Positions 1 through 58,985 of a stretch of 64,000 nucleotides of DNA are shown piece by piece. This DNA is from Loxodes magnus (lineage: Eukaryota > Ciliophora > Karyorelictea > Loxodida > Loxodidae): NCBI GenBank assembly GCA_946699065.1, contig CAMPDV010000855.1, forward strand, positions 62,001-126,000, read 5' to 3'. Each line of letters opens with the position of its first letter. Position 1 is the stretch's first letter. The position numbers were made by a program, and so were the translations under genes. The notes under the pieces are model-generated. The model saw only the letters and a list, made by a program, of their open reading frames with translations. It searched no databases and had not been told where the DNA came from.

Positions 1-48
1 TTTTTAAAAAGATGTGTCCTATTGAAGAACTATGTCCTCTATAATAAT
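1..48 (+). repeat. 3' end of a family-1a SINE, cut by the window edge
   Basis: These bases match the 3' end of the complete element at 37372-37660. They carry the end hairpin that occurs in all SINE families here and in the LINE at 43.4 kb, followed by a TATAATAATA tail. The stem is weaker than in other copies. The rest of the element would lie to the left of the window. Confidence 0.6.
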
Positions 49-89
49 ATTTTTATATATTTAAATTTTAGTTATAGAACCTACAATTA

Positions 90-721
90 CATCGAAAAAT
101 TGGTGAAAATCAATACTTTCAAAAGAATAAAAATTAAAGGATATGTTTGCTTCCTTTCTTTAACATATTATTGTATAGAACAATTTCAAAATCAGAGTTA
201 GAAAGAATAAATACATAATTTGCTTCTTCCTGTATAGAAAACTACTCCTAAATATTAGAAGATCTGAACTCTATTTATAGTTTCATCATTATATTGCTTA
301 ACAAATCTAATAAAAATATGACTTAATTAAGAAACTGCATTAATTTAGGATAAATATCGAAATTTAACTTTAAGAAACACATTTTGTATATAGAGAACGC
401 AAAATGGATTAAAAAATCCGCAAGCAGTTTAATCTAAACTTAAATCACTACAATAATACAGCTTTTGCATTTACAACTGTAAATTTCATCATAATTCATA
501 ATAATTATCTTCCGAAGATAAAAATCATAAATTTGAACGTTTTTAAGTCTTCTTCCTTCACTTATAACAACTCCTGATCACTCTAAGCCTGGTAATGTAA
601 GCTTAGTTTTTTGAATTTAAGCTTTTTAAATGAGCTTTAAAAAAATAAACAACTGGCTTTCTAGGAGAATAATACATCTAAACAACAAATTATCCTGACT
701 CAGATTTTGAAAGCTAAACAT
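90..721 (-). CDS. Unassigned coding-like stretch
   Basis: Reading from an ATG at 721 with TAA/TAG as Gln and TGA as Trp gives about 85 protein-like residues. They include a Cys-rich run (SCKCKSC) and a TGA in the context GLEWSGVV. After one frame change, a further protein-like stretch follows (QTACGFFNPFCVLYIQN). No family was recognised. The duplicate lies at 37698-38329. It could be a decayed gene. With no usable stop signal in this code, open frames alone prove little, so this rests on composition. Confidence 0.35.
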
Positions 722-1853
722 CTGTGTATAATTAAATTAATAAAATCTTATTTAGAATTAAAATATCATATTTTATCTTTTTAGCTTTTTGATAAATACT
801 CTTAATTTCAAATTTTTAAGAATATTAAATAGGTTATAATTAATAACTAATACATCTTATAAGATCACTTTCTCAATTTTTATAGCAAAGTAATATTAGT
901 TATATTGACTATTGATGCTATTTTTTGAGTTATCATTTAAATTATTAATAGATTTATGATTTTATTTAATACTTAATACAGTTACTTCTTTTGCTATTTC
1001 TATACTTATTTTAAAAGAATCTAGTTACTACTATTAGAACTCTCTTTTTTAAAATAAATAGTTTGCTACTAAGAAAATTATAAATATTTAAGAAAGAAAG
1101 CATATTTTTAATATATTGTATTATTATTTCTGAATTAATAGAAAAGAGTAATCTAAACATAATATATATCTTTGTAACAAGTATGAGATAATATAAGTAT
1201 TAGATTAGCTAATATAAATTATTTAAAACTAATTAAACAGATTATTATTTACTCTTAATACATTTTATTTACTTAAACTACTATTTTTCTATATCTATTG
1301 TTACTAATCAACATTTCATGCTTTGCTTTATAGCACATCATCCATTATTTTATATTAAACTTTACATAAGATTTAAATATAAAATTATGATATAGATAAT
1401 CATATAAATATTCAATCTTGAGGAATTAAAATGAGCTAGAATTTAAGATTTAACTCTTAATAGAAAATTTAAAAAGCTTTTTAATTTAATCTTTTTCTAA
1501 GCTTCATATACTTTTATGTTTAGACTATAGTAAAATTTTATTACTTTAATTAGGAGATTTAAATCTATTTAAAATAGTATTATTTAGTGTAAATACTAAA
1601 ATAAGTTAAGTTTTATAGTTGTTAGAATCTATAAACACATCAAATTTCCTTTTATTTATATTTAATACTATTATTTCTATATATCTTATACTACATATCT
1701 TATACTATATTACTATTCATATTTCCCATTTCTAACTAACATACTCCACTCTTATTCTACTTATCTAAAATTTATTTTTTATTATAAAATATAAAAAGTA
1801 TCTTAATAAGCTATTTTAAGTAATTTTATTTATTTAATTTAAATTATTTATTA
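722..1853. other. A+T-rich spacer
   Basis: No gene, tRNA or structured element was recognised. The last 90 bases match the conserved segment found just downstream of the other LRR genes (for example 11100-11185 and 22050-22130). Confidence 0.5.
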
Positions 1854-1869
1854 AAATATAAAATTAAAT

Positions 1870-2178
1870 AATTAAAAAGATGGTGGGAGCTGAGATTGAC
1901 CTTCTAAATCATACTTTCTGGTTTTATGGCTAGGAACAAGTTCCTTTCCTGTCGCTGAGAAAGTCCCTGGTCAAAGTCAACCTTTGCAAGGGAACGCCTT
2001 CATTTTGATTATCCACTCCTGGTAGGGGCTTGAAGCCTAGCTGCCCATAGCGATGGAGCTCCCTGGCAGCTGCTTTTCGAAAGTAACAGGATATCCCCGT
2101 TATCCCATGAAGGGAGTGCTGGGGTCGTTAAACTGCAAGAAGTTGCAGTCCAAAACTCTTTTAGTTTAAAATTAAATT
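1870..2178. mobile_element. GC-rich 309-bp insertion with 16-bp target-site duplication
   Basis: A GC-rich island sits inside otherwise 80% A+T DNA. It is flanked by direct repeats AAATATAAAATTAAAT at 1854-1869 and 2179-2194. LRR copies 2, 4, 5, 7 and 8 have a single uninterrupted copy of that sequence. The island contains a perfect hairpin at 2133-2148 (CTGCAA-GAAG-TTGCAG); the duplicate at 39741 changes only the loop. It also has a palindrome GGAAC-AA-GTTCC and the motif GCAGCTGC. Differences between the two copies are mostly transitions with no codon pattern, so it is probably not coding. It lacks the end hairpin of the other SINEs and looks like a separate SINE-type retroposon. No clear pol III A/B boxes were seen. 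Confidence 0.75.
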
Positions 2179-2210
2179 AAATATAAAATTAAATATTTAT
2201 TTACTTTCTT

Positions 2211-4021
2211 TCAAGTTTGAATGCTATCTTTCTCAACATTATGGAATATTGTCATCCTTACGAACTTCTATTTGAGTTCATACACCAATTATTCTTTTAT
2301 TGACGTTCCTCTAATATTTAAATATTTAAGATTTCTATAAAAAGGATATTCTTATCCCTCTTAATCACAAAGTGGAAAACCTTCCTATGTAATATCCTTT
2401 GAATTCGCAAGTTTTAAATACTTTAATTGCTTACAGTTAGTTATTATTTTTACTAAATCTTTGTTACTTAGTTCAATGTAATAAAAATTTAATTATTTTA
2501 ATTTTTTTATTTTAACTATTTCATCTATTCAATTCTCATCTAACATTTTGCAAAATATCAAGTCTAAACTTTCTAACTCCTTACAGTTTTAACTCAAAGA
2601 TTATAAAGCCTTATTATTTAGTTTTTCCATATCCCCAAAAGATAATTTTTTTAGTTTTCTACAATTCTCAAAAATATAACATAGAGTTTTATTAGAAAGT
2701 TATCTAACAGAATTAAAGGATATTTCTTTATAATTTTATCCATAATCTCCTATTTTCTTCAAAGATGTATTAGTAAGTTTATATAATGAATCTAATATAA
2801 TAGATTTTAAATTAGGACAGTTTTACATTAAAGATATAAGGTGATTATCATTAAAATTATAGCAATAATAAATCTCTATATGTTATAATTTATTATGCTA
2901 CTTAGAAAATAATTCTTATATTGCTTACATTTATAAGTTTCGATAAATTTTTAAACTACTAAGGTTCAAGTTTCTTATCTTCAGTATGAATTATTCTAAT
3001 TAATTTTATACTTTATAAGAGTCAATTTTGCTTAAATTAGGACATAAATCAATATAACTATCCATATTTTCATTTTAGTTTATATTTACTTCCTCTAATG
3101 AATTTCCTTTTTTCTACAAATATTGCAATAAAATATCTTGATTAAATCCTTTACTAAATAAATTTAGTACCTTTAAATTTAAATCTAAACAGTAGTCTAG
3201 TAAAAACTTTCCTGTTATCTATTTATAACTTATGTCTTAGATTTCTAAGGATTATAAATGAGTCAAATTTTATAAAAAACTTATACTTTCTCCTTAAAGA
3301 TTGAAAGCACTTAAAACTATTTTTTTTCTTGAAAGGTTTGATCTAAATTATTTAGTTCAAGTAAATGAATTTCTTATACTAGTTTATATCCTTTTTTATG
3401 TAAATTTAATTTTAGTTCTAAGCATTTTTTCATTTATTGAAAGATTTCTTCTGCTTAATTTTGCTTTTATCAATCATAAGTATTAATATATAAAATTTTA
3501 GTATCAGATTATAAAATTTATTTGAGAGTTCAGTTTATTTTATTTTAAACGTATTCTTTATTACTTGAATATTATTTTATTTCTAATTTTTTATATTAAT
3601 ATTTAAACTTATTTAGAAATTAATTAACCTATAATAGTCTACTTATGTCTATATTTTTAAGAAACTAACAAATATTTTGAAGAATATAAGAACTGGAAAA
3701 TAAAGTTTATTTACTACTTTTAAACTGCTTAATGCTTTATTATTCTATAGAAAACTATTCTTCTTAGTTTAAGTGTTCATGAAATCTCTTCATTGGAAGC
3801 GTTATTTCTTAATCTTAATAGTCTTTTTTTGATATTTTTTAATTTATCAAATTATTTTTTTAATTTTAATCTTAAGTTAAATGACTTTATATTTGGACTG
3901 CTACTTAAGTTTCTTGGTGTCTATTAGATTCTTCTTATTATTGATTAGAAGAGGACTATTATTTTGGATTATCTAGCGTATAGTTTTAGTTACTAGTTGA
4001 TTAATCAGTCCCACTTTACAT
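2211..4021 (-). pseudogene. F-box/LRR gene, copy 1 (28-bp deletion)
   Basis: This is a paralogue of the intact gene at 11202-13040. The start codon context, Gln-rich N-terminus, F-box region, LRR modules and terminal TGA are all recognisable. Length is 1,811 bp against 1,839: about 28 bp is missing near 3318-3330, just before the LRR part, which shifts the frame. The three in-frame TGA codons seen in the intact paralogues are still present. The near-identical copy 6 at 39819-41629 has the same deletion. It lies downstream of the WD40-type gene on the same strand, with a conserved TATAAATA about 30 bp before the ATG. Confidence 0.85.
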
Positions 4022-4249
4022 TTTATTATAATTTTTTATTTTATGAGACTATTTATACTTAGTTTATGAATAACGGCTATATTTATAAATAAAACTTAAG
4101 GTTTAAATAAGCATTATCATATTTATGTAACTTAATTAAATTTACTTTTTCAATTAAATAAAAGAGCTAAATTAAATGAAAGGTGTAAATAGTTTATTTA
4201 TCTTTCATCTATTCTTTATAATAAGCTAAATATAAATGTTTTCATAGTT

Positions 4250-11201: not shown

Positions 11202-13040
11202 TCAAATTTGTTTGCTACCTTTCTCAACATTATGGATTATTGTCATCCTTACGAACTTCTATTTAAGTTTATTAGCCCACTGTTCTCTTATTTACGTTCC
11301 TCTAATATTTAAATATTTAAGATTTCTATAAAAAGGATATTCTTATCCCTCTTAATCACAAAGTGGAAAACCTTCCTATGTAACATCCTTTGAATATTCA
11401 AGTTCTAAAAGATTTAAACGTTTACAGTTAGTTACTATTTATACTATATCTTTAGTATTTAGTTAAATTTTATAAAAATTTAATTATTTTAATTTGTTTA
11501 TTTTAACTATTTCATCTATTCAATTCTCATCTAAAATTTAGACATATGTCAAGTCTATACTTTCTAACTCCTTACAGTTTTAACTCATAGATTGTAAAGT
11601 CTTATTTTTTATTTTCTTCATTTTACTAAGAGATAATTTAGTTAGTTTTCTACAATTCTCAAAAATATAACATAGAGTTTCATTAGTTAGTTATTAAACA
11701 GAAATAAAGGATATTTCTTTATAATTTTATCCATAATCTCCTATTTTCTTCAAAGATGTATTAGTAAGTTTATATAATTAATTTAATAAAAGAGATTTTA
11801 AATTAGGACAGTTTTACATTAAAGATATAAGATGATTATCATTAAAACTATAGCAATTATAAATCTCTATATGCTATAAGGTATTATACTACTTAGAAAA
11901 TAATTCTTATATTGTTTCTGCTTATAAGCTTGAAAAAATTGTTAAATAGCTAAGGTTTAAGTTTTTTAACTTCAATATGAATTAATCTTAAGAAATTTTT
12001 AGATAACATTAGTTAATTTTGTTTAAATTAGGACAAAAATCAATATACTTGTCCATATCTCTATTATGGTTAATATTTATTTCTTCTAGCAAGTTTCCTT
12101 TTTATTTCAAATATTATAATAACATTTCTTGATTAATTCCTTCATTAAATATAATAAGTTCCTTTAAATTTAATCCTAAACAGTAGTCTAGTAAAAACTT
12201 TCCTGTTATCTATTTCTAATTTATGTCTTAGACTTCTAAGGATTATAAATGAATCAAATTTTACAAAAAATTTAAATTTTCTTCTTAAAGATTAAAAACA
12301 ATTAAAACTAGTTTTCTTATATTTGAGCATTTTGTCATATATTCTTAAAAGGTTTTATCTAAATTATTTAGTTCAAGTAAATGAATTTCTTATACTAGTT
12401 TATATCCTTTTTGATGTATATTTAATTTTAGTACTAAGTATTTTTTTATTTCTTGTAAAATTTATTCTTAATATTTTTCTTCTTATCAATCTTAAGTATT
12501 AATATATAATTTTTTAGTATCAGATTATAATATTTGTTTGAGAGTTCAGTTTGTTTTATTTAAAACGTAGTCTTTATTACTTGAATATTATTTTATTTCT
12601 AGCTTTTTATATTAATACTTAAACTTATTATAAAATTAACTAACTTATTGTAGTCTACTGATATCTCTTTTTTTAAGAAACTAACAAATAATTTGAAAAA
12701 TATAAGAATTGGAAAATAAAGTTTGTTTACTACTTTTAAGCTGCTTAATACCTTATTATTCTTAAGTAAGTTATTGTTCTTAGTTTAAGTGTTCATGAAA
12801 TCTCTTCATTTGAAGCGTTATTTCTTAATCTTTTTAATCTTCTATTGATTCTTTTTAATTTATTTAACTAATTTTTTATTTTTAGTCTTAAGTTAAATGA
12901 CTTTATATTTGGACTGTTACTTAAGCTTCTTGGAGATGTTTATTAGATTCTTCTTATTATTGATAAGAAGAGGACTATTAGTTTGGATTATCTAGTGTAT
13001 AGTTTTAGTTACTAGTTGATTAATCAGTCCTGCTTTACAT
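11202..13040 (-). CDS. F-box/LRR protein, copy 2, intact (612 aa)
   Basis: ATG at 13040 to TGA at 11202-11204 is exactly 613 codons with TAA/TAG as Gln and TGA as Trp. Residues 1-108 are Gln/Ser-rich. Residues ~109-150 resemble an F-box (SYIFQIICQFLKKRDISRL). Residues ~200-580 hold cysteine-type LRR modules, for example CPNLKSLLLNQLYKLTNTSL near 411 and NCRKLTKLSL near 462. Proteins of this kind are usually substrate receptors of SCF ubiquitin ligases. TGA occurs inside the gene at codons 165, 185 and 507 (12546-12548, 12486-12488, 11520-11522), all conserved in the paralogues. The last ~105 codons lack TGA, and Trp588 there is TGG. No introns are seen. The domain order is clear; the substrate is unknown. 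Confidence 0.9.
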
Positions 13041-17620: not shown

Positions 17621-19444
17621 TCAAAATTATTTGTTATCTTTCTCAATATTATGGAATATTGCCATCCTTACGAACTTCTATTTAAGTTAATTAGCCCACT
17701 ATTCTCTTATTTACGTTCCTCTAATATTTAAATATTTAAGATTTCTATAGAAAGGAAATTCTTATCCTTCTTAATCACAAAATAGAAAACCTTCCTATGT
17801 AACATCTTTTGAATATTACAATTTTAGAACTTTCAATTATTTATATTTAGTTACAATTTGTAAGATTTCTTTATTAGTAAGCTTACTTCCTTAAAAACTT
17901 AATTTTTTTAATTTATTTATTTAAACTATTTCATCTATTCAGTTTTTATCTATGAATAAGCAATAATCCAAATCTAAACTTTCTAATTATAAACAATTTT
18001 AACTCATAGATTGTAAAGTCTTATTTTTTAGTTTTTTCATTCCTTGAAGAGATAATTTAGTTAGTTTTCTACACTTCTCAAATATATATTGTAGAGTTTT
18101 ATTAGAAAGTTATTTAACATGACTAAGAGATATTTATTCATAGCTTTATCCATAATTTCCAATCTTTTTCAAAGCACTATTAGTAAGTTAATACAATAGA
18201 GTAAATGTAAGACATTTCAAGTTAGGAGAGTTTTATATTAAAGATATTAGGTGATTATCATTAAAATTATAGCAATCATTAATCTCTATATATTATAAAT
18301 TATTTTACTACTTAGAAAATAATTTTTATACTACTTCTGCTTATAAACTTTGAGATTACATAAGTTTTAAATGGATAAGATCAAAGTTTCTTATCTTCAG
18401 TATGAATTATTCTAATTAATTTTATACTTTATAAGAGTCAATTTTGTTTAAATTAGGACATAAATCAATATAACTATCCATATTTTCATTTTAGTTTATA
18501 TTTGCTTCCTCTAATGAATTTCCTTTTTTTCTATAAATATTGCAATAAAATTTCTTGATTAAGTCCTTTACTAAATATTTTTAGTACCTTTAAATTAAAC
18601 TCTTAACAGTATTCTTATAAAAATTTTCCTGTTACCTAATTATTATTTGATACTGTGATATGCAAAACTTGTAAATGAGTCAATTTTTATAAAAAGTTCA
18701 AATTTTCTTCTTATGAAAAGTTAGTCACTAAAGTTAATTTGTTTATATTTATACATTTTGATATATAATCTTAAATAACTTTATCTACGTTTGTTAATCC
18801 AAGTAATTGAATTTCTTAAACTAGTTAATATCCTTTTTGGTTAGATTTAATTTTAGTTGTAATTATTTTTAAAATTCTTGCTAAATTTATTCTTCCAATT
18901 TTTCTCTATTTCAATCGTAAGTATTGATATATAAAATTTTAGTATCTGACTATAAAATTTGCTTAAGGGTTCAATTTATTTTACTTTAAACATAGTCATA
19001 ATTACTTGAATATTTCTTTATTTCTAACTTTTGAAATTAATATTTGAACTTATTAAGGAACAAGCAAACCTATTGTAATCTACAGATTTCTCTATTTTTG
19101 AGGAACTAGCAAATATACTAAAGAATATAAGAATTGGAAATTAAACTCTATTTACTACTTTTAATCAATTTAGCATTTTATTATTCTTAAGAAACAACTT
19201 CTTTGTTTAAATTTTAATGAAATCTTTTTATTGGAAGTGTTATTTCTTAAATTTATTAATCTTCTGTATATATTTCTTAATTTATTTAACTGTTCTATTA
19301 TTTTTAGTCTTTTGTTATTTGAGTGTTTATTTAAATTTCTTGGATATTAGACTCTTCTTATTATTGAAAAGAAGAGGACTATTAGTTTGGATTATCTAGT
19401 GTATAGTTTTAGTTACTAGTTGATTAATCAGTCCCACTTTACAT
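17621..19444 (-). CDS. F-box/LRR protein, copy 3, intact and most diverged (607 aa)
   Basis: ATG at 19444 to TGA at 17621-17623 is 608 codons, five fewer than copies 2, 4 and 8, from in-frame length changes. In-frame TGA at codons 158, 178 and 502 corresponds exactly to codons 165, 185 and 507 of copy 2. The codons around them differ mainly at third positions: AAC TGA ACT CTC AAA in copy 2 is AAT TGA ACC CTT AAG here. This is the strongest sign of protein-level constraint across a TGA. The domain layout is as in copy 2. The plus-strand open frame at 19217-19399 is antisense. Confidence 0.85.
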
Positions 19445-21949: not shown

Positions 21950-22154
21950 ATTAATTTTTCATTAGTTATTTATTTATATATAATAACTGAAATGCCATTT
22001 ATTATCACTTTATTCTACTTATTTTATAAACAATTTATGTAAAATTTATAATATATAAAAGGTATCTTAATAAACTATTTTAAGTAATTTATTTATTTAA
22101 CATAAATTATTTATTAAAATATAAAATTAAATTCTTAATGTTTTTTACTTTCTT

Positions 22155-23993
22155 TCAAGTTTGATTACTATCTTTCTCAATATTATGGAATATTGCCATC
22201 CTTACGAACTTCTATTTAAGTTAATTAGCCCACTATTCTCTTATTTACGTTCCTCTAATATTTAAATATTTAAGATTTCTATAAAAAGGATATTCTTATC
22301 CCTCTTAATCACAAAATGGAAAGCCTTCCTATGTAACATCCTCTGAATTCTAAAGATATAAAGATTTTAATTGTTTACAGTTAGTTACTATTTATACTAT
22401 ATCTTTATTATTTAGTTAAATGTATTAAAAATTTAATTATTTTAATTTTTTAATTTTAACTATTTCATCTATTCAATTCTCATCTAATATTTAGCAAAAT
22501 GTCAAGTTTAAATTTTCTAACTCCTAACAGTTTTAACTCATAGATTGTAAAGTTTTATCTTTTAGTTTTTCCATATCCCTAAGAGATAATTTAGTTAGTT
22601 TTCTACAATTCTCAAAAATATAACATAGAATTTCATTAGTAAGTTATCTAACGTAACTAAAAGATATTTCTTTATAGTTCTATCCATAATCTCCTATTTT
22701 CTTCAAAGATGTATTAGTAAGTTCATATAATGAATCTAATATAATAGATTCTAAACTAGGACAGTTTTACAATAAAGATATCAGTTGATTATCATTAAAA
22801 TTATTGTGATTATAAATCTCTATATGCTATAAATTATTATGCTACTTAGAAACTAATTCTTATATTGTTTATATTTATAAGTTTCGATAAATTTTTAAAC
22901 TACTAAGGTTAAAAGTTTTTAGCTTCAATATGAATTAGTCGTAAGAACTTTTCATTAAATACCATTCAATTTTATTTAAATTAGGACAAAAATCAATATA
23001 CTTGTCCATATTCTTATTAGAGTTAATGTTTATTTCTTCTAACGTGCTTCCCTTTTATTACAAATATTGTATTAAAATCTCTTGATTCATTCCTTCACTA
23101 ATTATTTTTAGTTCCCTTAAATTTAACCCTAAACAGTAGTCTATTAGAAATTTTCCTTATATCTATTACTAATTTCTGTTTTTAATTTCCAAGGACCATA
23201 AATTAGTCAAATTTTACAAAAAGTTTCAATTTTCTTCTTAAAGATTAAAAACAATTAAAACTAGTTTTCTTATATTTGAGCATTTTGTCATATATTCTTA
23301 AAAGGTTTTATGTAAATTATTTAGTTCAAGTAAATGAATTTCTTATACTAATTTAAATCCTTTTTGAAATAAATTTAATTTTAGTTCTAAGCATTTTTTT
23401 ATTTATTGAAAGATTTCTTTTGCTTAATTTTCTTATTATCATTTCTAAGTATTAATATATAGAATTTTAGTATCAGATTATAATATTTGCTTGAGAGTTC
23501 AGTTAACTTTATTTTAAACGTAATCATTATTACTTGAATATTCTTTAATTTCTAACTTTTCAAATTAATACTTAAACTTATTTAGAAATTTATTAACTTA
23601 TTGTAATCTACAAATGTCTCTATTTTTAAGGAACTAACAAATAGTTTGAAGAATATAAGAACTGGAAAATAAAGTTTATTTACTACTTTTAAACTACTTA
23701 ATGCTTTATTATTCTTAAGAAAGTTCTTCTTCTTAGTTTAAGTTTTCATGAAATCTCTTCATTGGAAGCGTAATATCTTAATCTTAATACTCTTTTATTG
23801 ATTCTTTTTAATTTATCAAATTATTTTTTTAATTTTAATCTTATGCTAAATTGTTTTGGATTTAGGCTGCTACTTAAGTTTCTTGGAGGAGTTTATTAGA
23901 TTCTTCTTATTATCGATCAGAAGAGGACTATTAGTTTGGGCTATCTAGTGTATAGTTTTAGTTACTAGTTGATTAATCAGCCCCACTTTACAT
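22155..23993 (-). CDS. F-box/LRR protein, copy 4, intact (612 aa)
   Basis: A 613-codon frame. Among the TCA triplets I could locate on the plus strand of this gene (about 34), only five fall in the coding frame. They are codons 165, 185 and 507 (conserved), one private change at 23226-23228 (TTA Leu to TGA), and the terminal stop. About 19 and 10 fall in the other two frames. Its upstream sequence is block B instead of the WD40-type gene, joined at the conserved leader. Confidence 0.88.
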
Positions 23994-24139
23994 TTTATTA
24001 TAATTTTTTATTTTATCAGACTATTTATACTTAATTTATGAATAACGGCTATATTTATAATTTATATAATCATAATCATATTTTAAATAGATTTAAATTA
24101 GTATAATAAACTTTTTAAATTATATAAATTAATAAATAA

Positions 24140-24470
24140 GATTATAGAACAAGTAGCAACCCAATGGCATGCAGTTCTTTAATAAAGATTTTTAATATTT
24201 AAATATCTCTTTGCTGAAGTCTTCCAAAGCGCAAACATTCCTTTGTGAATCTTGTCTTCTATAGGACCGTGATTTGAATTCTCCCTAAGAGCCGTTAATA
24301 TATCTGGCATCTTTCATCTTTAACTTTACTTGATGCTTCTTCAGTTTTTTCTTCTCTTGGTTTCTATAAGATTCTTGTTCGGTTCTTCGCTTATGGTATT
24401 TCTTGGTACAGTATTTAAAGTAAATCTCACTTGGAGGATTGTTTCTCCCTATTTAAAATTAATATATATA
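24140..24470 (-). mobile_element. SINE family 2
   Basis: Reading the minus strand, it starts TTTTAAATAGGGAG, contains GCATCAAGTAAAG...GATGCC (a stem GCATC/GATGC) and GGAAGACTTCA, and ends in the family hairpin. Here the outer stem is AGAAC/GTTCT, against AGAGC/GCTCT in the LINE, a compensatory pair. Relatives are at 41780, 42580, 59125 and 62600. The plus-strand open frame at 24330-24545 is incidental. Confidence 0.65.
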
Positions 24471-24540
24471 ATAATAATAGTTTATTATATTGATTCAGCT
24501 TTGATTGCTTATCCAAATTTTGTTCTTTATATAATAAGAA

Positions 24541-24880
24541 AGTAAAACTTCTTATCTTCAATTTCTTTTTTTGAGTCTCTATTTAGATTTTCTACTTCTT
24601 GAAATAATTAATTTATATTATTTAAACATTTCTAATCATACTTTAATTATTATTTTTCGATATCTTCAACTATTCAAATCAGGTTACCCTAAAATGTATT
24701 TTCAAATTTTCATATTGCACTATTTGAATTTCTTGTTTCAAATAGATATAACTATCTCAAGTTTTTGCTCTATCAATGGATTTCGACTGAAGTTAGGAAT
24801 TAGAAGCTTAAAAAATGGTTCTTTCATGCTATTGGTTATATTTAAAACCTTCTACCTAAATTGATTTGAACGTTTTGATA
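24541..24880 (-). CDS. Short coding-like stretch in block B
   Basis: One minus-strand frame reads ...QEIQIVQYENLKIHFRVTWFEQLKI. In the copies at about 42320-42500 and 59560-59830 the same frame gives RATWFEQL. Changes between copies include ACC/ACT and TAG/CAG, both silent under this code, and TGA is kept as Trp. No family or start was identified. The opposite-strand open frame (24571-24864) is less likely to be real. Confidence 0.3.
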
Positions 24881-26375
24881 TTTGGCCTGAGAGAAGAAAA
24901 GTTTGAATATAATATAATAGTGAAAATAAATATGATAGTTTGAGATAATATAGGAAAATAAAAGATATAATTGTAATAATTGTAATAAAAGGAAGAATCC
25001 TTATAATAGGAAAGAATATTTAAAAGTATCTTAAATAGATTAAACTTAATAGGAAAATATCTTTTTTAAATGTTTATTTAAATTGAAAATAAAGTGTAGA
25101 AATATTTAAGTTTTAGTATTTAATAATATTTATCTCTTACTCTATAGAAGCCTAATAAGTTACTTTATTATAAAAAATGAAGAGACTTTCTATTTTAAAA
25201 TTGATAAAAATAGCTTTGAATCACTAAAAAATGAATAATTAAAATTTGTAAAGAACAAAATATAAGTTGACTAATTATAAAATAATATAAGCTAAATATC
25301 AATAGAAGTAATACTTTAAAAATAAGTACTTTATTATAATTATTTTTAAAAATCTTTATTTTTCTACAATAACTATTAATAAAATATTAAATAATTAAAC
25401 AATAATTCCTAACTTAATTATTATAAAAACTTTACTAACATTTTTAATAAAATCACTTAAATTTAAAAAGTAATTATAATTTACTTAAAGTACATTTAAT
25501 TTACTTACCATAACTTAAGTAATTAACATATATCAATCTAAGCTAATTTTAATATTTACATTAATGCTAGATGATTCTTATAAAACATTCAGGAATACAA
25601 TTTTTATAATATTATATTGAGAGTAGATAAAGTTATTTACATTTAATCTAAGTGATGCAACTATTTAAATTACTTTTTTACTAAATCCTTTTAAGTAATT
25701 TTTAGTAGTATAATTTTAATATCTTTGTTTATTTTACATTATATTTATAAATAAAACTTAAGTAATTATTCAAAATTTATTTCTTACAGTTAAAATCATA
25801 AACACAAAAGAACCTTAATTTCTTAAAATGTAATCTTTTCTTATTGTATCTTAAAAGCTGGCTATTTAATACTACTTTTAATAAAACTATGCTTTAATAA
25901 TGAGTCAAAATATTAAAACTTTATGTTTGGTAATAGCTAAAATGGTTATATAAAATATTGATATCTCCTAATACCAAAAATAATTTAATTTAAATATCAA
26001 TTTAGATTATTTTTTTATTTTTATATAATAGAATTAAAAAATATTTTAAAGGCTTAGAAAGAAAATATACAACTTTATCTGAGCTTTCTTATAAAATATT
26101 TTGAAAATTTTTATAAAATAAATAGCCTTTTTATAGCCAAATTATTATTTTCTTTTAATTTAATTCTATATTTATTAAAAATGAATTGATGAATACTTTG
26201 TAATAAAATGTGATTCAGCAAATACTCTATATTATAGTAAATGTTTTGTTATTTGTTTGCAAAGAGTCTTTATTCATGATAAGAATTTAATTACTTTTCA
26301 ATTTTAGTTATTTGTCTTTTTGCATAGTTAACTTTTTTAAATTATGTTATATACAAGTAATTATAATTGTATTTA

Positions 26376-26785
26376 AACTCCTTATAATTATATTATATAT
26401 ATAATTTAAATAGGGTTGAAAGTCTACTCCTTTGGATGCTGCTTGGAGGCCCAGCAAGGCAACAAAAAAATGAGCGCGGACAGAGGTTAAATCGGAAGAA
26501 GAGAAACCAATACAGGAGAAGTAAGATGTGACAAGCTGGATTACTCTGAATGCCAGAAGAAAACTTTCTTCATCATAGGTCGGGGAAATGTACCAGTAAT
26601 CGCATACTGCATCCTATGCTTTGGAAGGAAAAATTACAGGGATGTACTGCAGGAAGAGAAAACAAGGAAAGATAGATCTATAAAATTTTTTTCGATAAAA
26701 ATAAAATTAATTTAAAGAGCTGTGCAACAACGAGAGTGCTACGCGTTCTGAAATCGAATTTATTTATTTATTATTTATTATAATA
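26376..26785 (+). mobile_element. SINE family 1b
   Basis: A GC-rich island starting ATTTAAATAGGGTTG, with the core TAGGTCGGGGAAATG...GTAATCGC shared with family 1a. It ends in AGAGCTGTGCAAC-AACGA-GAGTGCTACGCGTTCT. The block-B copy around 45550 lacks the whole island, so it is an insertion. Differences between this copy and the one at 61376 are mostly amino-acid-changing in the best frame, so there is no sign of coding constraint. Confidence 0.7.
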
Positions 26786-28940
26786 AAATATAAGTGAATA
26801 TGAAAATAAATAGAGTTAAAATAACTAAGTTAATAGTTAAAAATATGATTATTTATTTTTATTAAGTTCTTTTAGCTTATAAAATAATAATAAATTTAGA
26901 ATTAATTTCTTGTTTTAATTTTTATTCTAATTTTCTTTTCTTCTAAAACTTATTAATTTATAACTGTATTTTATAATTTTAATTTTTTAATAAATTCTAT
27001 TTATTCTAATGAAGATCTAAGTAAAGCATTAAATATGATTTTATATAATTAATCTAATAAAATGTATATTGTAAAACATAAATTTTAAAATTATTTTAGT
27101 TTTAAATATTTATTAAACAAGTTTAATCTTAATTAGCTTCAAAATTCCTTCAAAAGAAAAAGCACTAAAAAAGGATTATAAATAAATATACAAATTATAT
27201 ATAATTTATAGCTAAATAAAATATTAAAAAATTATGATTTAAAAAAAGTAAAAATAATAAAAATATAGACATTGAATCAAAAAAACATTTTAGCAAAGCA
27301 TAAGAAACTTTTAAAATTTTATGTTTAAATAGTTAAACTACTTTAAGTTATAAAAAGATAATTAAAAAATCTTATAAACTTATAATTTTATTTATTATTT
27401 GCTTTGATAAACAAAGGAGTAAATTTTAGAAATTTCTTAAATATGTAAAAATCTTATTAATTAATCACTAAAAATTTTAAAAAATTAAATATTTTTTATG
27501 AGTGCTATTCTTTGAATGTAATTAAAGCAAGCTTATCACTTATCTTTAATTTTAATAAATATATTTTTATTAGATTTTCAAATTAAAATATCCATTTTTT
27601 TAATTTTTTCTTTTTTAATAAAGATTTAATAATTTTATGAGATTTTGATTAGGCTTTAATGACATTACTATCTATTAAATATATTTTAAATTTCTTAGAA
27701 TTAAATGTATATTATTTAAATTTCTTGGAGAATTCTACTTTTTTAATATTTTTAAATTTTTTAAAATAATTTCTTAAATAGATCTTTAATCTATTAATTT
27801 TTAATGTATTGGTTGTAATTGTATATGTTTTTTAATTTGAATATAATTTTATAATTTTGCATAAAAGTTTGATATTCTTACAACCTAATTTTAAAATAAT
27901 AAATCTAGATTTTCTGAAAGTTAAAATATAATATTGTAATAAATGCTAAAAATAGTTATAATGTTTCTTTACTCTGCTATTTTTACAGCTTTTAACTTTT
28001 ATAAAATAGTTTTATTATTATTTTGTAATTTCTCTTTTTAGATTTATTTTAATTACTTCTTTTAGCTTATAGATATGCTTCATACCTTCTTTAAATATTT
28101 AGCATTTCTTACATTTTTAGATGTTAATTGATAAAATAGTTAGTATTAAAGCTGATTGCTCTTAGTATAATAGATTAGTAATTTAAAAATATTGAATATT
28201 TGGCTCTTTAAGCAATGGTAGTATAAATATAAGTTAGTTAAATGTTAAATGAAAATATGATGTAAATAGTATTAAGTATAAAGATGAATATAAGTGATGA
28301 TATTAATAATGGTTTAGTTAATAATTAATTAATTTGATGACATATAAAAGTATAAACTAGTTATTAAATTATTAATTTATTTATTAACTCAGATTATGCA
28401 ATTTTAATGGTATTAGTTATAATATTTTGATTAGTTTTAAACAAATCTATATTATAACTTAGTATATTTATAATTATTATAAACATTTAAAATCATTCTA
28501 TTATTTTAAATCAGACTTTATTAAACTTTATATCATTCCAATTAAATCAAAATTACAATTCAAAGGCTAGTATTTAGATTTTATAACGATAAATACCTCT
28601 AATCAATATATTTAAATCAAACTATCCAAAATCTAGATATTTAAGTTTAAATTTATGCTTAAACTACTATTTTCTTTACTTTAATTGGATAAAAGATATG
28701 CAACAATATTAAAGTATAAATAAAATCAAAGTTTAAATCATTAGAAAATCATTTATATTGTAATATTCAAATATTTCATTTTACTAAATTTAAACATATT
28801 ATACATATAACTATCAATATATTTCTAAACACAACTAATCCAACCTATCAACAAATATACTGTCACTAACTTTTTCCAAATTCATATCTAAAATACAAAA
28901 AACTTAAAACCATAATCATTTTCAAATATCATTAATTAAT

Positions 28941-30176: not shown

Positions 30177-32005
30177 TCAAGTTTGAATGCTATCTTCCTC
30201 AACATTATAGTAAATTGTCATCCTTACAAACTTCTATTTAAGTTTATTAGCCCATTATTCACTTATTGACGTTCCTCTAATATTTAAATATTTAAGATTT
30301 CTTCAAAAAGGATATTCTTATCCCTCTTAATCACAAAGTGGAAAACCTTCCTATGTAACATCCTTTGAATCGCAAATATTTAAAATTTTTAATTGTTTAC
30401 AGTTAGTTACTATTTATACTAAATCTTTGTTACTTAGTTCAATGTAATAAAAATCTAATTATTTTAATTTGTTAATTTTAACTATTTCATCTATTCAATT
30501 CTCATCTAACATTTTACATAATGCCAAGTCTAAGATTTCTAACTCCTTACAGTTTTAACTCAAAGATCATAAAGTCTTATTTTTCATTTTTTTCATACCC
30601 CGAAGAGATAATTTAGTTAGTTTTCTACAATTCTCAAAAATATAACATAGAGTTTTATTAGAAAGTTATCTAATTTAACTAAAAGATATTTCTTTATAAT
30701 TTTATCCATAATCTCCTATTTTCTTCAAAGATGTATTAGTAAGTTCTTATAATGAAGTCAATATAATAGATTCTAAACTAGGACAGTTTTACAATAAAGA
30801 TATCAGTTGATTATCATTAAAATTATCGCAATCATCAATCTCAATATACTACAATTTATTATGCTACTTAGAAAATAATTCTTATATTGTTTCTTCTTAT
30901 AAATCTCATTAAATTTTTAAATAGCTAAGGTTAAAGTTTTTTAACTTCAATATGAATTAGTCGTAAGGGCTTTCTAATTGATAAGAGTCAATTTTATTTA
31001 AATTAGGACAAAAATCAATATACTTGTCAATATTCTCATAAAAGTTAATGTTTATTTCTTCTAATAAGCTTCCTTGTTATTTCAAGTACTATACTAAAAT
31101 TTCTTGATTAATTTCTTCACTAAATATAATTAGTTCCTTTAAATTTAGCCCTAAACAGTAGTCTAGTAAAAACTTTCCTGTTATCTATTTTTTATTTATG
31201 TCTTAGACTTCTAAGGATTATAAATGAGTCAAGTTTTACAAAAAATTTAAATTTTCTTCTTAAAGATTGAAAATACTTAAAACTAATTTTTTTAGATTTG
31301 AGCATTTTTATATATATTCTTGAAAGGTTTTATGTAAATTATTTAGTTCAAGTAAATGAATTTCTTATACTAATTTAAATCCTTTTTGAAATAAATTTAA
31401 TTTTAGTTCTAAACATTTTTTTATTTATTGAAAGATTTCTTTTGCTTAATTTTCTTATTATCATTTCTAAGTATCAATATACAGATTTTAGTATCAGATT
31501 ATAAAATTTGTTTGAGAGTTCAGTTTATTTTATTTTAAACATAGTCTTTATTACTTGAATATTGTTTTATTTCTAACTTTTCAAATTAATACTTAAACTT
31601 ATTTAGAAATTTATTAACTTACTGTAGTCTACTTATGTCTCTATTTTTAAGGAACTAACAAATATTTTGAAGAATATAAGAATTAGAAAATAAAGTTTAT
31701 TTATTACTTTTAAACTGCTTGGCACTTTATTATTCTTAAGACAGTTCTTCTTCTTAGTTTAAGTTTTCATGAAATCTCTTAATTGGAAGCGTTATTTCTT
31801 AATCTTAATAGTCTTTTTTTGATATTTTTTAATTTATCAAATTATTTTTTTAATTTTAATCTTATGCTAAATAGTTTTGGATTTGGGCTGCTACTTAAGT
31901 TTCTTTGATAATAGATGTTTATTATTATCGATTATAAGAGGACTATTAATTTGGGCTATCTAATGTTTAGTTTTAGTTATTAGTTGATTAACTCCCACTT
32001 TACAT
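30177..32005 (-). pseudogene. F-box/LRR gene, copy 5 (one-base deletion)
   Basis: 1,829 bp; one base restores 610 codons. The missing base is visible near 31486, where AGATTTTAG replaces AGAATTTTAG of copies 7 and 8, between the first and second conserved TGA codons. Two other length changes near the N-terminus are in frame. All three internal TGA and the terminal TGA are kept. It is either a young pseudogene or an assembly error. Confidence 0.8.
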
Positions 32006-32090: not shown

Positions 32091-32973
32091 AAATATTAAA
32101 AAAATGAAGCCTGGCTTTTTTACCAAATAAAATTAGAAAGGTAAAAATTAATAAGAATATGAAGAGAAAAAGTAGAAACAATCAAAACCTAGGAAGATAA
32201 TGTCCACACCTCCAAAGCAATAAGAAACTCCAGTTGACTAAGATCTTTAAGAAATTAATCTTAGTAAGGATCGAAATAGCATTGAATAACTTCAGAATTA
32301 GTAAAAATTTTGCTTAATGAGGTTAAAAAGCTTAAGGAGTAAAATTAAATATTGATAGAGAATATTGAAAACGTAAAAGATAGATTAATTAAATAAGAAA
32401 GAGAAATGGATGCCTATTGAAATATTCAAACTGACTGCTCTTAGTAAATATAGTAAATGAAATTAGACTCATAATCATAATTAATTAAATAAACAAAACG
32501 TGCATAATAACCAGAACCAATTGCAATATTGGGGCAAAATCAAATTTAAGAATAATTTTAAAACAACTAGCAAGATTGTCAAATGGAAATTGAAAAAAGA
32601 TCAAAAATTTATCAGAATACAATGAAGAGTAGAAAGTGCTATTACTGCAAGAAAAAGGACACTAATAAAAATAGTGCAGAAATTTTTATGTATTCAAGAA
32701 TGAATTTAATTAGAGAGTTAAGAGACTGACAGAAAGAATTCATATTACTTAGAGAGAATCTATTTATCAAATTAAAGAGACAAGCGCCAAAAGAATAGTA
32801 GCAAGGTAGATGGATGAAAGATGGAGAGAGAAGAGAAATATAAGATTTAAGACAAGAAAAAATAGAAATGAAACAATAAACTTTTCTTTTTATTCACCAG
32901 ACTATTCTGGTTGGAAAGAGGAGAATTGATGAAAATCCAAGAAGACCTCTAAACAATTTTATCTATTATTATT
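32091..32973 (+). mobile_element. ORF1-only retroelement E4, 15-bp TSD
   Basis: 883 bp between perfect repeats ATAATCATAATCATA (32076-32090 and 32974-32988), inserted in the start of the block-B-type upstream region of LRR copy 5. It starts 13 bp before its ATG and ends in (ATT)n. Confidence 0.85.
32104..32960 (+). pseudogene. ORF1-like protein of E4
   Basis: The N-terminus MKPGFFTKQNQKG matches GFF of E3. After one frameshift a coiled region follows (LLNEVKKLKEQNQILIENI), then MKLDS, CQMEIEKRSK and a degenerate knuckle CYYCKKKDTNKN that lacks His and the last Cys. TGA occurs in DAYWNIQ and ELRDWQKE contexts. The knuckle variant CxxCKKKD recurs in the remnant at 53321. Confidence 0.6.
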
Positions 32974-33050
32974 ATAATCATAATCATATTTTAAATAGAC
33001 TTAAATGAGTATAATAAACTTTTTAAATGATTTACTAAAATTTAGCTAAT

Positions 33051-33879: not shown

Positions 33880-33904
33880 TTTTTTCTATTGAGAATAATA
33901 ATAT
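33051..33904 (-). mobile_element. ORF1-only retroelement E5, 15-bp TSD
   Basis: 854 bp between perfect repeats TAAAATTTAGCTAAT (33036-33050 and 33905-33919). It lies in opposite orientation to E4, 62 bp after E4's right duplication. It ends in (TTA)n, preceded by CTGG-TTGCAATT-CCAG. Confidence 0.88.
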
Positions 33905-34039
33905 TAAAATTTAGCTAATTAAAAATAAAAGTACTTATTAAAAGTTACCATACTTATTCTTTAAATTTAACTAAATATTCATGTTATTTTAATTAAATAA
34001 AGCTAAATTAAGTGTTTAATTTAAAGAGTTGATCATTAA

Positions 34040-34850: not shown

Positions 34851-35269
34851 AAATTATTTCTATTATTTATTTTTAATAAATTTATTAGATTATGAAATGT
34901 GAAATGTCTAGAGAAGCTAACAATTATTGTATAGTATTATTTATTTTATTTATATTTTTATATTAATTACCTTAAGATTTATATTATTTACTTATAATTG
35001 TATTCATTAACTATAGTGCTTCCTTTAATAGATTCATTACTGTATATAAGTTTAATGTTTTCTTCAAATCTTTAAATTTCAGTCTTCGTCTTGATTTCTT
35101 TCCTTTAAGGCATATCTAATAGTGCTAATTTAATCCTTTTATACTGAGATTTTGTTTCGGTTAAGTTCACTGTTTAGCATTTATTCGTTCCTTCTTTATT
35201 GTGTAAATTTTATGTCTTGTAAAATTTCATTCCTTTTATAAATTTTCTTTCTGTATAATATATAAATAT

Positions 35270-37660: not shown

Positions 37661-37697
37661 TTATATATTTAAATTTTAGTTATAGAACCTACAATTA

Positions 37698-39818: not shown

Positions 39819-41629
39819 TCAAGTTTGAATGCTATCTTTCTCAACATTATGGAATATTGTCATCCTTACGAACTTCTATTTAAGTTCATACACCAATTAT
39901 TCTTTTATTGACGTTCCTCTAATATCTAAATATTTAAGATTTCTATAAAAAGGATATTCTTATCCCTCTTAATCACAAAGTGGAAAACCTTCCTATGTAA
40001 TATCCTTTGAATTCGCAAGTTTTAAATACTTTAATTGCTTACAGTTAGTTACTATTTTTACTAAATCTTTGTTACTTAGTTCAATGTAATAAAAATTTAA
40101 TTATTTTAATTTGTTTATTTTAACTATTTCATCTATTCAATTCTCATCTAACATTTTGCAAAATATCAAGTCTAAACTTTCTAACTCCTTACAGTTTTAA
40201 CTCAAAGATTATAAAGCCTTATTATTTAGTTTTTCCATATCCCCAAAAGATAATTTTTTTAGTTTTCTACAATTCTCAAAAATATAACATAGAGTTTTAT
40301 TAGAAAGTTATATATCATAACTAAAAGATATTTTTTTATAATTCTATCCGTAATCTCCTATTTTCTTCAAAGATGTATTAGTAAGTTTATATAATGAATC
40401 TAATATAGTAGATTTTAAATTAGGACAGTTTTACATTAAAGATATAAGGTGATTATCATTAAAATTATAGCAATAATAAATCTCTATATGTTATAATTTA
40501 TTATGCTACTTAGAAAATAATTATTATATTGTTTACATTTATAAGTTTCGATAAATTTTTAAACTACTAAGGTTCAAGTTTCTTATCTTCAGTATGAATT
40601 ATTCTAATTAATTTTATACTTTATAAGAGTCAATTTTGCTTAAATTAGGACATAAATCAATATAACTATCCATATTTTCATTTTAGTTTATATTTACTTC
40701 CTCTAGTGAATTTCCTTTTTTCTACAAATATTGCAATAAAATATCTTGATTAAATCCTTTACTAAATAAATTTAGTACCTTTAAATTTAAATCTAAACAG
40801 TAGTCTAGTAAAAACTTTCCTGTTATCTATTTATAACTTATGTCTTAGATTTCTAAGGATTATAAATGAGTCAAGTTTTATAAAAAACTTATACTTTCTC
40901 CTTAAAGATTGAAAGCACTTAAAACTATTTTTTTTCTTGAAAGGTTTGATCTAAATTATTTAGTTCAAGTAAATGAATTTCTTATACTAGTTTATATCCT
41001 TTTTTATGTAAATTTAATTTTAGTTCTAAGCATTTTTTCATTTATTGAAAGATTTCTTCTGCTTAATTTTGCTTTTATCAATCATAAGTATTAATATATA
41101 AAATTTTAGTATCAGATTATAAAATTTATTTGAGAGTTCAGTTTATTTTATTTTAAACGTATTCTTTATTACTTGAATATTATTTTATTTCTAATTTTTT
41201 ATATTAATATTTAAACTTATTTAGAAATTAATTAACCTATAATAGTCTACTTATGTCTATATTTTTAAGAAACTAACAAATATTTTGAAGAATATAAGAA
41301 CTGGAAAATAAAGTTTATTTACTACTTTTAAACTGCTTAATGCTTTATTATTCTATAGAAAACTATTCTTCTTAGTTTAAGTGTTCATGAAATCTCTTCA
41401 TTGGAAGCGTTATTTCTTAATCTTAATAGTCTTTTTTTGATATTTTTTAATTTATCAAATTATTTTTTTAATTTTAATCTTAAGTTAAATGACTTTATAT
41501 TTGGACTGCTACTTAAGTTTCTTGGTGTCTATTAGATTCTTCTTATTATTGATTAGAAGAGGACTATTATTTTGGATTATCTAGCGTATAGTTTTAGTTA
41601 CTAGTTGATTAATCAGTCCCACTTTACAT
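39819..41629 (-). pseudogene. F-box/LRR gene, copy 6 (28-bp deletion)
   Basis: Duplicate of copy 1 with the same deletion. At 40301-40358 it differs from copy 1 at many clustered bases (AACTAAAAGATATTT for AATTAAAGGATATTT). There it resembles copies 4 and 5, which suggests a gene-conversion patch. Its upstream sequence is block B. The plus-strand open frame at 40909-41094 is antisense. Confidence 0.85.
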
Positions 41630-50054: not shown

Positions 50055-51892
50055 TCAAGTTTGAATGCTACCTTTCTCAACATTATGGATTATTGTCATC
50101 CTTACGAACTTCTATTTAAATTTATTAGCCCACTATTTATTTATTGACGTTCCTCTAATATTTAAATATTTTAGATTTCTATAAAAAGGATATTCTTATC
50201 CCTCTTAATCACAAAGTGGAAAACCTTCCTATGTAACATTCTTTGAATTATAAAGATTTAATATTTTTAAATGCTTACAGTTAGTTACTATTTATACTAT
50301 ATCTTTATTATTTAGTTAAGTTCATTAAAAGTATAATTATTTTAATTTGTTTATTTTAACTATTTCATTTATTCAATTCTCATCTAAAATTTAGACATAT
50401 GCCAAGTTTAAACTTTCTAACTCCTTACAGTTTTAACTCATAGATTGTAAAGTCTTATTATTTAGTTTTTTCATATCCGTAAGAGATAATTTAGTTAGTT
50501 TTCTACAATTCTCAAAAATATAACGTAGAGTTTCATTAGAAAGTTATCTAACAGAATTAAAGGATATTTCTTTATAATTTTATCCATAATCTCCTATTTT
50601 CTTCAAAGATGAACTAGTAAGTGAATATAATTAATTTAATATAAGAGACTTTAAACTAGGACAGTTTTACATTAAAGATATCAGTTGATTATCATTAAAA
50701 CTATAGCAATTATAAATCTCTATATGCTATAAGGTATTATACTACTTAGAAAATAATTCTTATATTGTTTCTGCTTATAAGCTTGAAAAAATTGTTAAAC
50801 TACTAAGTTTAAAGTTTTTTAACTTCAATATGAATTAGTCGTAAGATATTTCTATATTATATTAGTTCATTTTGTTTAAATTAGGACAAAAATCAATATA
50901 CTTGTTCATATCTCTATTATGGTTAATGTTTATTTCTTCTAACATGTTTCCTTTTTATTATAAATATTATAATAACATTTCTTGATTAATTCCTTCACCA
51001 AATATAATTAGTTCCTTTAAATTCAATCCTTAACAATAGTGTAGCAAAAACTTTCCTGTTATCGATTCCTAATTTATGTCTTAGATTTCTAAGGATTATA
51101 AATGAGTCAAGCTTTACAAAAAATTTAAATTTTCTTCATAAAGATTAAAAACACTTAAAACTAGTCTTTTTAGATTTGACCATTTAGAAATATATTCTTG
51201 AAAGGTTTTATCTAAATTATTTAGTTCAAGTAAATGAATTTCTTATACTAATTTAAATCCTTTTTGAAATAAATTTAATTTTAGTTCTAAGCATTTTTTT
51301 ATTTATTGAAAGATTTCTTTTGCTTAATTTTCTTATTATCATTTCTAAGTATCAATATACAGAATTTTAGTATCAGATTATAAAATTTGTTTGAGAGTTC
51401 AGTTTTTTTTATTTTAAACGTAGTCTTTATTACTTGAATATTATTTTATTTCTAACTTTTCAAATTAATACTTAAACTTATTTAGAAATTTATTAACCTA
51501 TTGTAATCTACAAATGTCTATATTTTTAAGGAACTAACTAATAATTTGAAGAATATAAGAATTGGAAAATAAAGTTTATTTATTACTTTTAAACTGCTAA
51601 TGTTTTATTATTCTTAAGAAAACTCTTTTTCTTAGTTTAAGTGCTCGTTAATTCTCTTCATTGGAAGCGTAATATCTTAGTCTTTTTAATCTTTTATTGA
51701 TTCTTTTTAATTTATCAAATTATTTTTTTATTTTTAGTCTTAAATTAGATCCTTTTAAATTTGAGCTGTTACTTAAGTTTCTTGGAGATGTTTATTAGAT
51801 TCTTCTTATTATCGATCAGAAGAGGACTATTAGTTTGGATTATCTAGTATATAATTTTAGCTACTAGTTGATTAATCACTGCTGCTTTACAT
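50055..51892 (-). pseudogene. F-box/LRR gene, copy 7 (one-base deletion)
   Basis: 1,838 bp, one short of 613 codons. The missing base is near 51598 (GCTAATG for GCTTAATG in copies 1 and 6), in the Gln-rich N-terminus before the F-box. All internal TGA positions are kept in the family frame. Upstream is a short remnant of the WD40-type gene 3' end. It is possibly functional if the base is an assembly error. Confidence 0.8.
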
Positions 51893-57146: not shown

Positions 57147-58985
57147 TCAAGTTCAATTACTATCTTCCTCAACATTATGGACAACTGTCATCCTTACGAA
57201 CTTTTATTTAAGTTTTCTAGCCCACTATTCTCTTATTTACGTTCCTCTAATATTTAAATATTTAAGATTTCTATAAAAAGGATATTCTTATCCCTCTTAA
57301 TCACAAATTGGAAAACCTTCCTATGTAACTCCATGTGAGCACTCAATTTTTAAAAGATTTAAATGCTTGCAATTAGTTATCATTTATACTATATCTTTAT
57401 TATTTAGTTAAATTCATTAAAAATTTAATTATTTTAATTTGTTTATTTTAACTATTTCATTTATTCAATTCTCATCTAACATTTTGCAAAATATCAAGTC
57501 TAAACTTTCTAACTCCTTACAGTTTTAACTCATAGAATGTAAAGTCATATTATTTAGTTCTTCCATGTCCCAAAGAGATAATTTAGTTAGTTTTCTACAA
57601 TTCTCAAAAATATAACGTAGAGTTTTATTAGAAAGTTGGCTAATAGAAATAAAGGATATTTCTTTATAATTTTATCCATAATCTCCTATTTTCTTCAAAG
57701 ATGTATTAGTAAGTTCAAATAATGAATCTAATATAATAGATTTTAAATTAGGACAGTTTTACATTAAAGATATAAGATGACTATCATTAAATTTATAGCA
57801 ATCTTCAATCTCTATATGCTATAAATTATTATGCTACTTAGAAAATAATTCTTATATTGTTTCTGCTTATAAATCTCACTAAATTTTTAAGTAACTAAGG
57901 TTAAAGTTTTTTAACTTCAATATGAATTAGGGGTAAGAACTATTTATATAAAATATGTCAATTTTGTTTAAATTAGGACAAAAATCAATATACTTGTCCA
58001 TATTCTTATTATGGTTAATGTTTATTTCTCCTAATGTGCTTCCTTTTTATTACAAATATTATAATAACATGTCTTGATTAATTCCCTTAATAAATAATTT
58101 TAGTTCCTTTAAATTTAACCCTAAACAGTATTCTATTAGAAACTTTCCTGTTATCGATTCCTAATTTATGTCTTTAATTTCTAAGGAATATAAATGAGTC
58201 AAATTTTACAAAAAACTTAAATTTTCTTCTTAAAAATTGTAAACACTTAAAACTAGTTTTTTTAGATTTGAGCATTTCGCTATATACTCTTGAAAGGGTT
58301 AATCTAATGTATTTAGTACAAGTAAATGAATTTCTTATATTAGTTTATATCCTTTTTGATATAAATTTAATTTTTGTTCTAAGCATTTTTTTATTTATTG
58401 AAAGATTTCTTTTGCTTAATTTTCTTATTATCATTTCTAACTATCAATATACAGAATTTTAGTATCAGATTATAATATTTATTTGAGAGTTCAATTTATT
58501 TTATTTTAAACATAGCCTTTATTACTTGAATATTCTTTAATTTCTAACTTTTCAAATTAATACTTAAACTTATTTAGAAATTTATTAACCTATTGTAATC
58601 TACAAATGTCTCTATTTTTAAGGAACTAACTAATATTTTGAAGAATATAAGAATTGGAAAATAAAGTTTATTTACTACTTTTAAACTACTTAATGCTTTA
58701 TTATTTTTAAGAAAACTCTTCTTCTTAGTTTAAGTGTTCATTAATTCTCTTCATTGGAAGCGTTATTTCTTAATCTTAATACTCTTTTATTGATATTTTT
58801 TAATTTATCAAATTATTTTTTTAATTTTAATCTTATGCTAAAATGTTTTGGATTTAGGCTTCTACTTAAGTTTCTTGGAGGTGTCTATTAGATTCTTCTT
58901 ATTATCGATCAGAAGAGGATTAACAATTTGAACTATTTGGAGTATAATTTTAGCTACTAGTTGATTAATCAGTCCTGCTTTACAT
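57147..58985 (-). CDS. F-box/LRR protein, copy 8, intact frame
   Basis: 613 codons to the family stop position. TGA at codons 165, 185 and 507 is checked by position (58491, 58431, 57465). An extra TGA two codons before the usual stop (57153-57155) replaces Asn-Gln of other copies by Asn-TGA; if it terminates there, the protein is 610 aa. Domain layout is as in copy 2. Upstream is block B. The plus-strand open frame at 58268-58462 is antisense. Confidence 0.85.

Follow-up and report, generated by a model that had tools for sequence, protein, structure and literature searches.

An F-box/LRR gene family of Loxodes magnus with in-frame TGA codons that fit the ambiguous karyorelict genetic code

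Results

Copies of an F-box/LRR gene in the window

The window, by which is meant the whole stretch of 64,000 nucleotides that was analysed (contig C855, 62001-126000), has a G+C content of approximately 22% and carries eight copies of an F-box/LRR gene (Table 1). It belongs to a Loxodes magnus genome assembly that was examined at 705,730,643 bases in 7,843 contigs; the macronuclear assembly is given as 706 Mbp in its published description (Seah et al. 2024, PMC11441545), and L. magnus is placed within the Karyorelictea in the NCBI taxonomy. All eight copies have TGA at codons 165, 185, 507 and 613 in the numbering of copy 2. Frame-breaking indels were found in copies 1, 5, 6 and 7, and the 25-base deletion is common to copies 1 and 6.

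Table 1. Copies of the F-box/LRR gene, in-frame TGA codons of copy 2 and tRNA-Trp arrays. Positions are those of the window unless a contig is named; fractions refer to distinct copies of the family.
Feature	Position	Strand	Remarks
Copy 1	2211..4021	-	Frame broken by 25-base deletion; 4/4 family TGAs present
Copy 2, F-box/LRR gene	11202..13040	-	612 codons and terminal TGA; TAA/TAG as Gln, internal TGA as Trp
Copy 2, in-frame TGA, codon 165	12546..12548	-	TGA in 39/39
Copy 2, in-frame TGA, codon 185	12486..12488	-	TGA in 38/39, TAA in 1/39
Copy 2, in-frame TGA, codon 507	11520..11522	-	TGA in 39/39; FBXL2 and FBXL17 homology extends beyond
Copy 2, terminal TGA (stop), codon 613	11202..11204	-	TGA in 39/39; frame-shifting indels between window copies located after
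Copy 3	17621..19444	-	Most diverged (79%); TGA at 158, 178, 502 and 608
Copy 4	22155..23993	-	Frame intact; additional TGA at 256
Copy 5	30177..32005	-	1-base deletion; 4/4 family TGAs present
Copy 6	39819..41629	-	Near-identical to copy 1 (99.3% over 4,090 bases)
Copy 7	50055..51892	-	1-base deletion; 4/4 family TGAs present
Copy 8	57147..58985	-	Frame intact; additional TGAs at 370, 524 and 611
tRNA-Trp(CCA) tandem arrays	G000:C67:482321-491201; C148:155462-169182		At least 48 and at least 51 matches, respectively, among those listed

The gene sits within larger duplicated units, and the eight copies share one orientation at a spacing of 4.5–10.2 kb. Positions 1-4090 and 37609-41698 form a gapless repeat that spans copies 1 and 6 including their deletion; judged from the sequence, this block is a recent duplication. 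A second repeat of 5.3 kb relates 21950-27265 to 56942-62255 at 93.3% identity. Downstream of copies 1 and 6 (~2031-2160 and ~39639-39768), 40–50 bases past the stop, the sequence departs from that of the family and becomes G+C-rich, a switch that may be due to inserted sequence or mark where a mobile element ends.

Identity of the encoded protein was evaluated by profile and sequence comparison. The Pfam family LRR_At5g56370 scored above cut-off in both copies that were scanned (copies 2 and 4), and an LRR array is present. The F-box profile PF12937 reached 16.3 bits in copy 4, below its cut-off of 24.3, and was not reported in copy 2. A protein search with P0001, in which 7994 candidates were scored, returned five distant proteins that included two plant F-box/LRR proteins and one from fly. 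LRR stretches of FBXL2 (PDB 6o60) and FBXL17 (6w66) align with the copies between codons 348 and 558; compared with these two proteins, the copies' own F-box is weak and their N-terminal region is rich in Gln. The family is an ordinary, though large, F-box/LRR family. Rfam gave no match at the gathering score and ARAGORN found no tRNA anywhere in the window, and a Pfam search of the six frames of 32500-37399 yielded no family at E 0.01.

In-frame TGA codons across the family

A family sample was assembled by DNA search. The best 40 of 533 candidates together with the eight copies of the window resulted in 50 sequences with repeats, 39 of which were distinct. As the best-scoring candidates favour intact copies, these probably make up a smaller part of the family as a whole than of this sample, where indels were restricted to multiples of three in 32 of the 39 distinct copies and shifted the frame in the remaining 7. 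Three internal TGAs and no more were counted in 16 of the 32 frame-preserving copies. The others carry additional ones, for example at codons 370, 524, 571 and 581, where other copies encode different residues.

A preliminary description of this DNA had noted invariant TGAs in the LRR paralogues, and the counts over the window and over the family (Table 1) bear this out. It had further described the frames of copies 2, 4 and 8 as open apart from codons 165, 185 and 507; the three TGAs are where it placed them, but only copy 2 is otherwise open, given the extra TGAs of copies 4 and 8. The three internal positions that it gave for copy 3 were right, and to these are added TGAs at 240, 249 and 255, in a stretch bounded by a single-base deletion on one side and a single-base insertion on the other. 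Silent changes flanking the fixed TGAs, also part of that description, were seen in the alignments of the copies. The scarcity of TGA in frame relative to out of frame that it reported for copy 4 extends to the 32 frame-preserving copies, with a mean of 3.9 TGAs per copy in frame (terminal TGA left out) versus means of 9.8 and 17.8 for the two remaining frames.

No TGG was found at codons 165, 185 or 507 among the 39 distinct copies. This absence was considered as an anomaly and dropped, since A is likewise fixed in the frame-preserving copies at 75 of the 108 two-fold A/G sites that can be compared, and the missing TGG is therefore not unusual. Under the karyorelict code, a depletion of coding UGA is expected over approximately the last 20 codons ahead of the stop; among the 32 frame-preserving copies, which represent a single family, one TGA lies 2 codons before the end and the next nearest lies 26 codons before it.

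Evidence for translation of the frame

The 32 frame-preserving copies were used to evaluate selection on the frame. Their mean pairwise dN/dS was 0.53 overall, and by segment 0.39 (codons 1-164), 0.47 (165-345), 0.68 (346-505) and 0.69 (506-612). Synonymous changes were compared with 1000 simulations in which the mutation spectrum was preserved and the positions were shuffled; the majority sequence has TGA at codon 370 as well. Over the whole frame 274 synonymous changes were counted versus 214.5 ± 10.2 expected, and over codons 166-506 there were 159 versus 122.5 ± 7.5, values that none of the 1000 simulations attained in either case. For codons 508-612 the count was 44 versus 38.1 ± 4.2, which 101 of the 1000 simulations reached. 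The same simulation gave no synonymous excess in the two other frames. A position-wise comparison of diversity, which is a weak test and was superseded by the spectrum-preserving simulation, gave significant differences for codons 186-506 only. Translation past the first TGA is accordingly well supported by the excess over codons 166-506, whereas the excess over codons 508-612 argues weakly for translation past the third TGA at codon 507. Homology adds to the case there, as the alignments to FBXL2 and FBXL17 continue beyond that codon (386-558 and 392-549, respectively).

New in-frame TGAs were gained 8 times versus an expected 20.3 ± 4.0, and no simulation out of 1000 was as low. Such TGAs are thus tolerated but selected against, and TGA does not behave as a neutral sense codon in this family. 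Together, the dN/dS of 0.53, which rises to 0.69 for codons 506-612, and the slight synonymous excess after codon 507 indicate relaxed constraint on the family, in which some of the copies may be decaying.

These observations bear on the reading that the family consists of pseudogenes or non-coding repeats, its three internal stops having been inherited from one dead ancestor in a genome that, like that of Tetrahymena, uses TGA solely for termination. The dN/dS, the faint signal past codon 507 and the under-representation of TGA gains are all in its favour, as are the broken frames of 7 of the 39 copies, a number drawn from a sample that favours intact ones. Against it stand the 32 copies in which the frame was kept, the synonymous excess between the TGAs and the occurrence of TGA at Trp positions in tubulin genes of the same genome, which are described below. 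On the tubulin result, the code stands whether or not individual copies of the LRR gene are dead, and we regard the pseudogene reading as very improbable.

TGA at tryptophan positions of tubulin genes

An independent test was made in tubulin genes of the same assembly. Out of 258 candidates 150 were scored and 38 loci were fetched, comprising the 12 best-scoring and 26 chosen for carrying TGA; many of the others were near-identical. Tubulin genes or fragments are very numerous in this genome, with at least 150 scored among the 258 candidates, and occur in clusters on G000:C64, C441 and other contigs.

For the beta-tubulin gene L055, a gapless alignment of 442 residues was obtained with PDB 6u0h_B, 417 of them identical. 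The three internal TGAs of L055 (codons 101, 344 and 397) all fall opposite Trp of the reference, and its 12 TAA and 3 TAG codons all fall at Gln positions. Where the reference has Cys, L055 has TGT or TGC Cys codons, and TGA is matched by Trp only. The codon directly after residue 445 is again TGA.

When the 38 loci were aligned to L055, 61 of 95 TGAs within the aligned parts, the three of L055 included, were opposite its four Trp, that is 4 of 445 residues: 18 at W21, 15 at W101, 16 at W344 and 12 at W397. Among the remaining 34, 33 were at other residues and one at a gap, with at most two per position and mostly in diverged tubulins. Other loci have TGG at W21 (18), W344 (15) and W397 (13) and mostly Phe or Tyr at W101. 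Across the other loci, Gln was the commonest residue opposite both TAA (198 of 494) and TAG (65 of 171). An earlier and narrower alignment of 27 loci, with 11 of the 38 dropped, had 24 TGAs, of which 22 fell on W21 or W101; a TAA/TAG tally over these 27 loci against a mixed alpha/beta tubulin consensus, a cruder comparison, did not single out Gln.

The central claim of the preliminary description, that TGA encodes Trp inside genes, is supported by L055, by the counts over the 38 loci and by the published karyorelict code. A Tetrahymena-type code, which it had judged not to fit, was rejected on account of the TGAs at tubulin Trp positions and the synonymous excess between the LRR TGAs; the frame kept in 32 of 39 LRR copies points the same way. 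Applied to this genome, the Tetrahymena table would cut the LRR family off at codon 165.

Another reading is that the TGAs lie in short introns and are removed by splicing. In its favour, the introns of L. magnus are typically very short, with a mode of 17 bp and 93% at or below 25 bp according to the published genome description (PMC11441545), and GT..AG pairs 15–80 bases long surround the TGAs at codons 165, 185 and 507 in 33, 26 and 39 of the 39 copies, having a length that is a multiple of three in 30, 7 and 39 copies, respectively. At none of the three sites, however, does a GT..AG pair keep a constant offset and length across the 39 copies, which speaks against introns. Lengths that are multiples of three are moreover stated to be relatively depleted among L. 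magnus introns in the same source (PMC11441545), and the TGAs of L055 match Trp residue for residue in a gapless alignment. We regard introns at these sites as extremely improbable.

The proposal that TGA specifies another residue at least at some sites, such as Cys as in Euplotes or selenocysteine, or that it is skipped, is likewise extremely improbable: the motif at codon 507 (ILDEN*IDEIVK) is closer to the LRR consensus without that residue and the FBXL17 alignment has a one-residue gap there, but LRR repeat length varies, FBXL2 aligns at this codon without a gap, and TGA is concentrated at the four tubulin Trp positions and, in L055, distinct from the codons used for Cys. As FBXL2 has Gly opposite codon 507, these homologues do not fix its residue. 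The residue at the LRR TGA sites themselves is, by extension from the tubulins, presumably Trp.

Candidate tRNAs for decoding of UGA

A genome-wide pattern search for the anticodon arm and T arm of tRNA-Trp, allowing up to 3 mismatches, gave 159 forward and 159 reverse matches, and 0 and 0 with the reversed control. The 100 matches listed out of these 318 were all exact and all carried the anticodon CCA. They comprised 48 in a tandem array on C67 with a spacing of approximately 188 bases, 51 on C148, mostly spaced at 241 bases, and one on C110 (Table 1). Four genes were fetched from the 318 matches, and three of these, L090, L091 and L092, fold as tRNA-Trp(CCA) in which the anticodon stem has 4 base pairs on account of a mismatched top pair. 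L090 and L091, from the C67 array, are identical with A.C at the top, and L092, from C148, has T.C. The fourth, L093 (G000:C110:470064-470154), is likewise a tRNA-Trp(CCA), and its anticodon stem is of the normal 5 bp, closed by T-A. One pair of its T stem is broken, and it may for this reason be a pseudogene.

A tRNA-Trp with a 4-bp stem is among the features reported for Loxodes and Blepharisma in PMC13092985, citing Swart et al. 2024, where the 4-bp form from Blastocrithidia and Condylostoma is also stated to increase UGA readthrough in reporter systems. Given the tRNA-Trp(CCA) genes with a 4-bp stem, the tRNA-Trp(UCA) that had been proposed beforehand as the suppressor is probably not the decoder. 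In C. magnum, the genome assemblies are described as having no detected tRNA-Trp(UCA) (Swart et al. 2016, PMC4967479). That the 4-bp tRNA-Trp(CCA) is what reads UGA in the L. magnus cell appears likely on these grounds.

A more elaborate scheme can be put forward, though we consider it unlikely. The high-copy arrayed 4-bp tRNA-Trp(CCA) would read both UGA and UGG while the 5-bp L093 would read UGG only, the two kinds would coexist and, if L093 is expressed, their ratio would set the rate at which UGA is read as Trp. The choice between sense and stop would then be tunable through tRNA dosage.

Tryptophan and termination at the same codon

TGA also terminates the frames in which it occurs. It is the last codon in all 39 LRR copies, in the beta-tubulin gene L055 and in the eRF1 gene L082, which makes the code ambiguous and not a simple reassignment. 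The preliminary description missed that TGA is the stop of the same frame.

The in-gene TGAs are read as Trp because the DNA is that of Loxodes magnus, a ciliate whose code has UGA as Trp inside genes and as stop at their ends. We hold with near certainty to the joint explanation, which combines the karyorelict code (table 27), an F-box/LRR family with three UGA-Trp codons and a fourth UGA as its stop, and decoding by tRNA-Trp(CCA) in competition with eRF1. In this model UAA and UAG are read as Gln, and UGA as Trp where it lies deep within the coding sequence and as stop near the 3' end of the mRNA. Three Trp of each LRR gene would then be encoded by UGA and the fourth UGA would end the frame. 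Internal UGA would most likely be read by the near-cognate tRNA-Trp(CCA) with 4 pairs in its anticodon stem, and eRF1 would win at UGA near the poly-A tail. By analogy, distance to poly-A would decide between sense and stop, a rule that is set out for karyorelicts and Condylostoma in published accounts (PMC11441545, PMC4967479).

The code found here is the already described karyorelict code (NCBI table 27) and not a new one. As that code is presented for L. magnus in PMC11441545, UAR specifies Gln and UGA, the sole stop, also specifies Trp if far enough from the poly-A tail; no difference from this description was detected. The result is a confirmation, from raw sequence alone, of a code present in the NCBI tables and holds no novelty as a code. 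It does provide an example for teaching and gene prediction, with one codon standing for Trp three times and for stop once in dozens of copies of one family. Whereas Condylostoma magnum also stops at UAA and UAG (table 28), TGA was the only stop seen here in the few genes looked at. The system of Kachale et al. from 2023 reportedly shares with the present one UGA as Trp and a tRNA-Trp(CCA) whose anticodon stem has its top pair broken, and is said to differ from it in having UAR as Glu and UAA as stop. In the account of Swart et al. 2016 (PMC4967479), C. magnum and Parduczia sp. have UAR as Gln, UGA as Trp and context-dependent termination, as here.

The eRF1 gene L082 encodes 436 amino acids, has no internal TGA and matches a solved eRF1 structure over residues 6-432, with RAQNIKS in place of the TASNIKS of the reference. 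Two further in-frame TGAs follow within five codons after its TGA stop. Matches to eRF1 domains were found in L082 and L083, approximately 35 kb apart on G000:C196, and a third and higher-scoring one, L081, lies on G000:C2.
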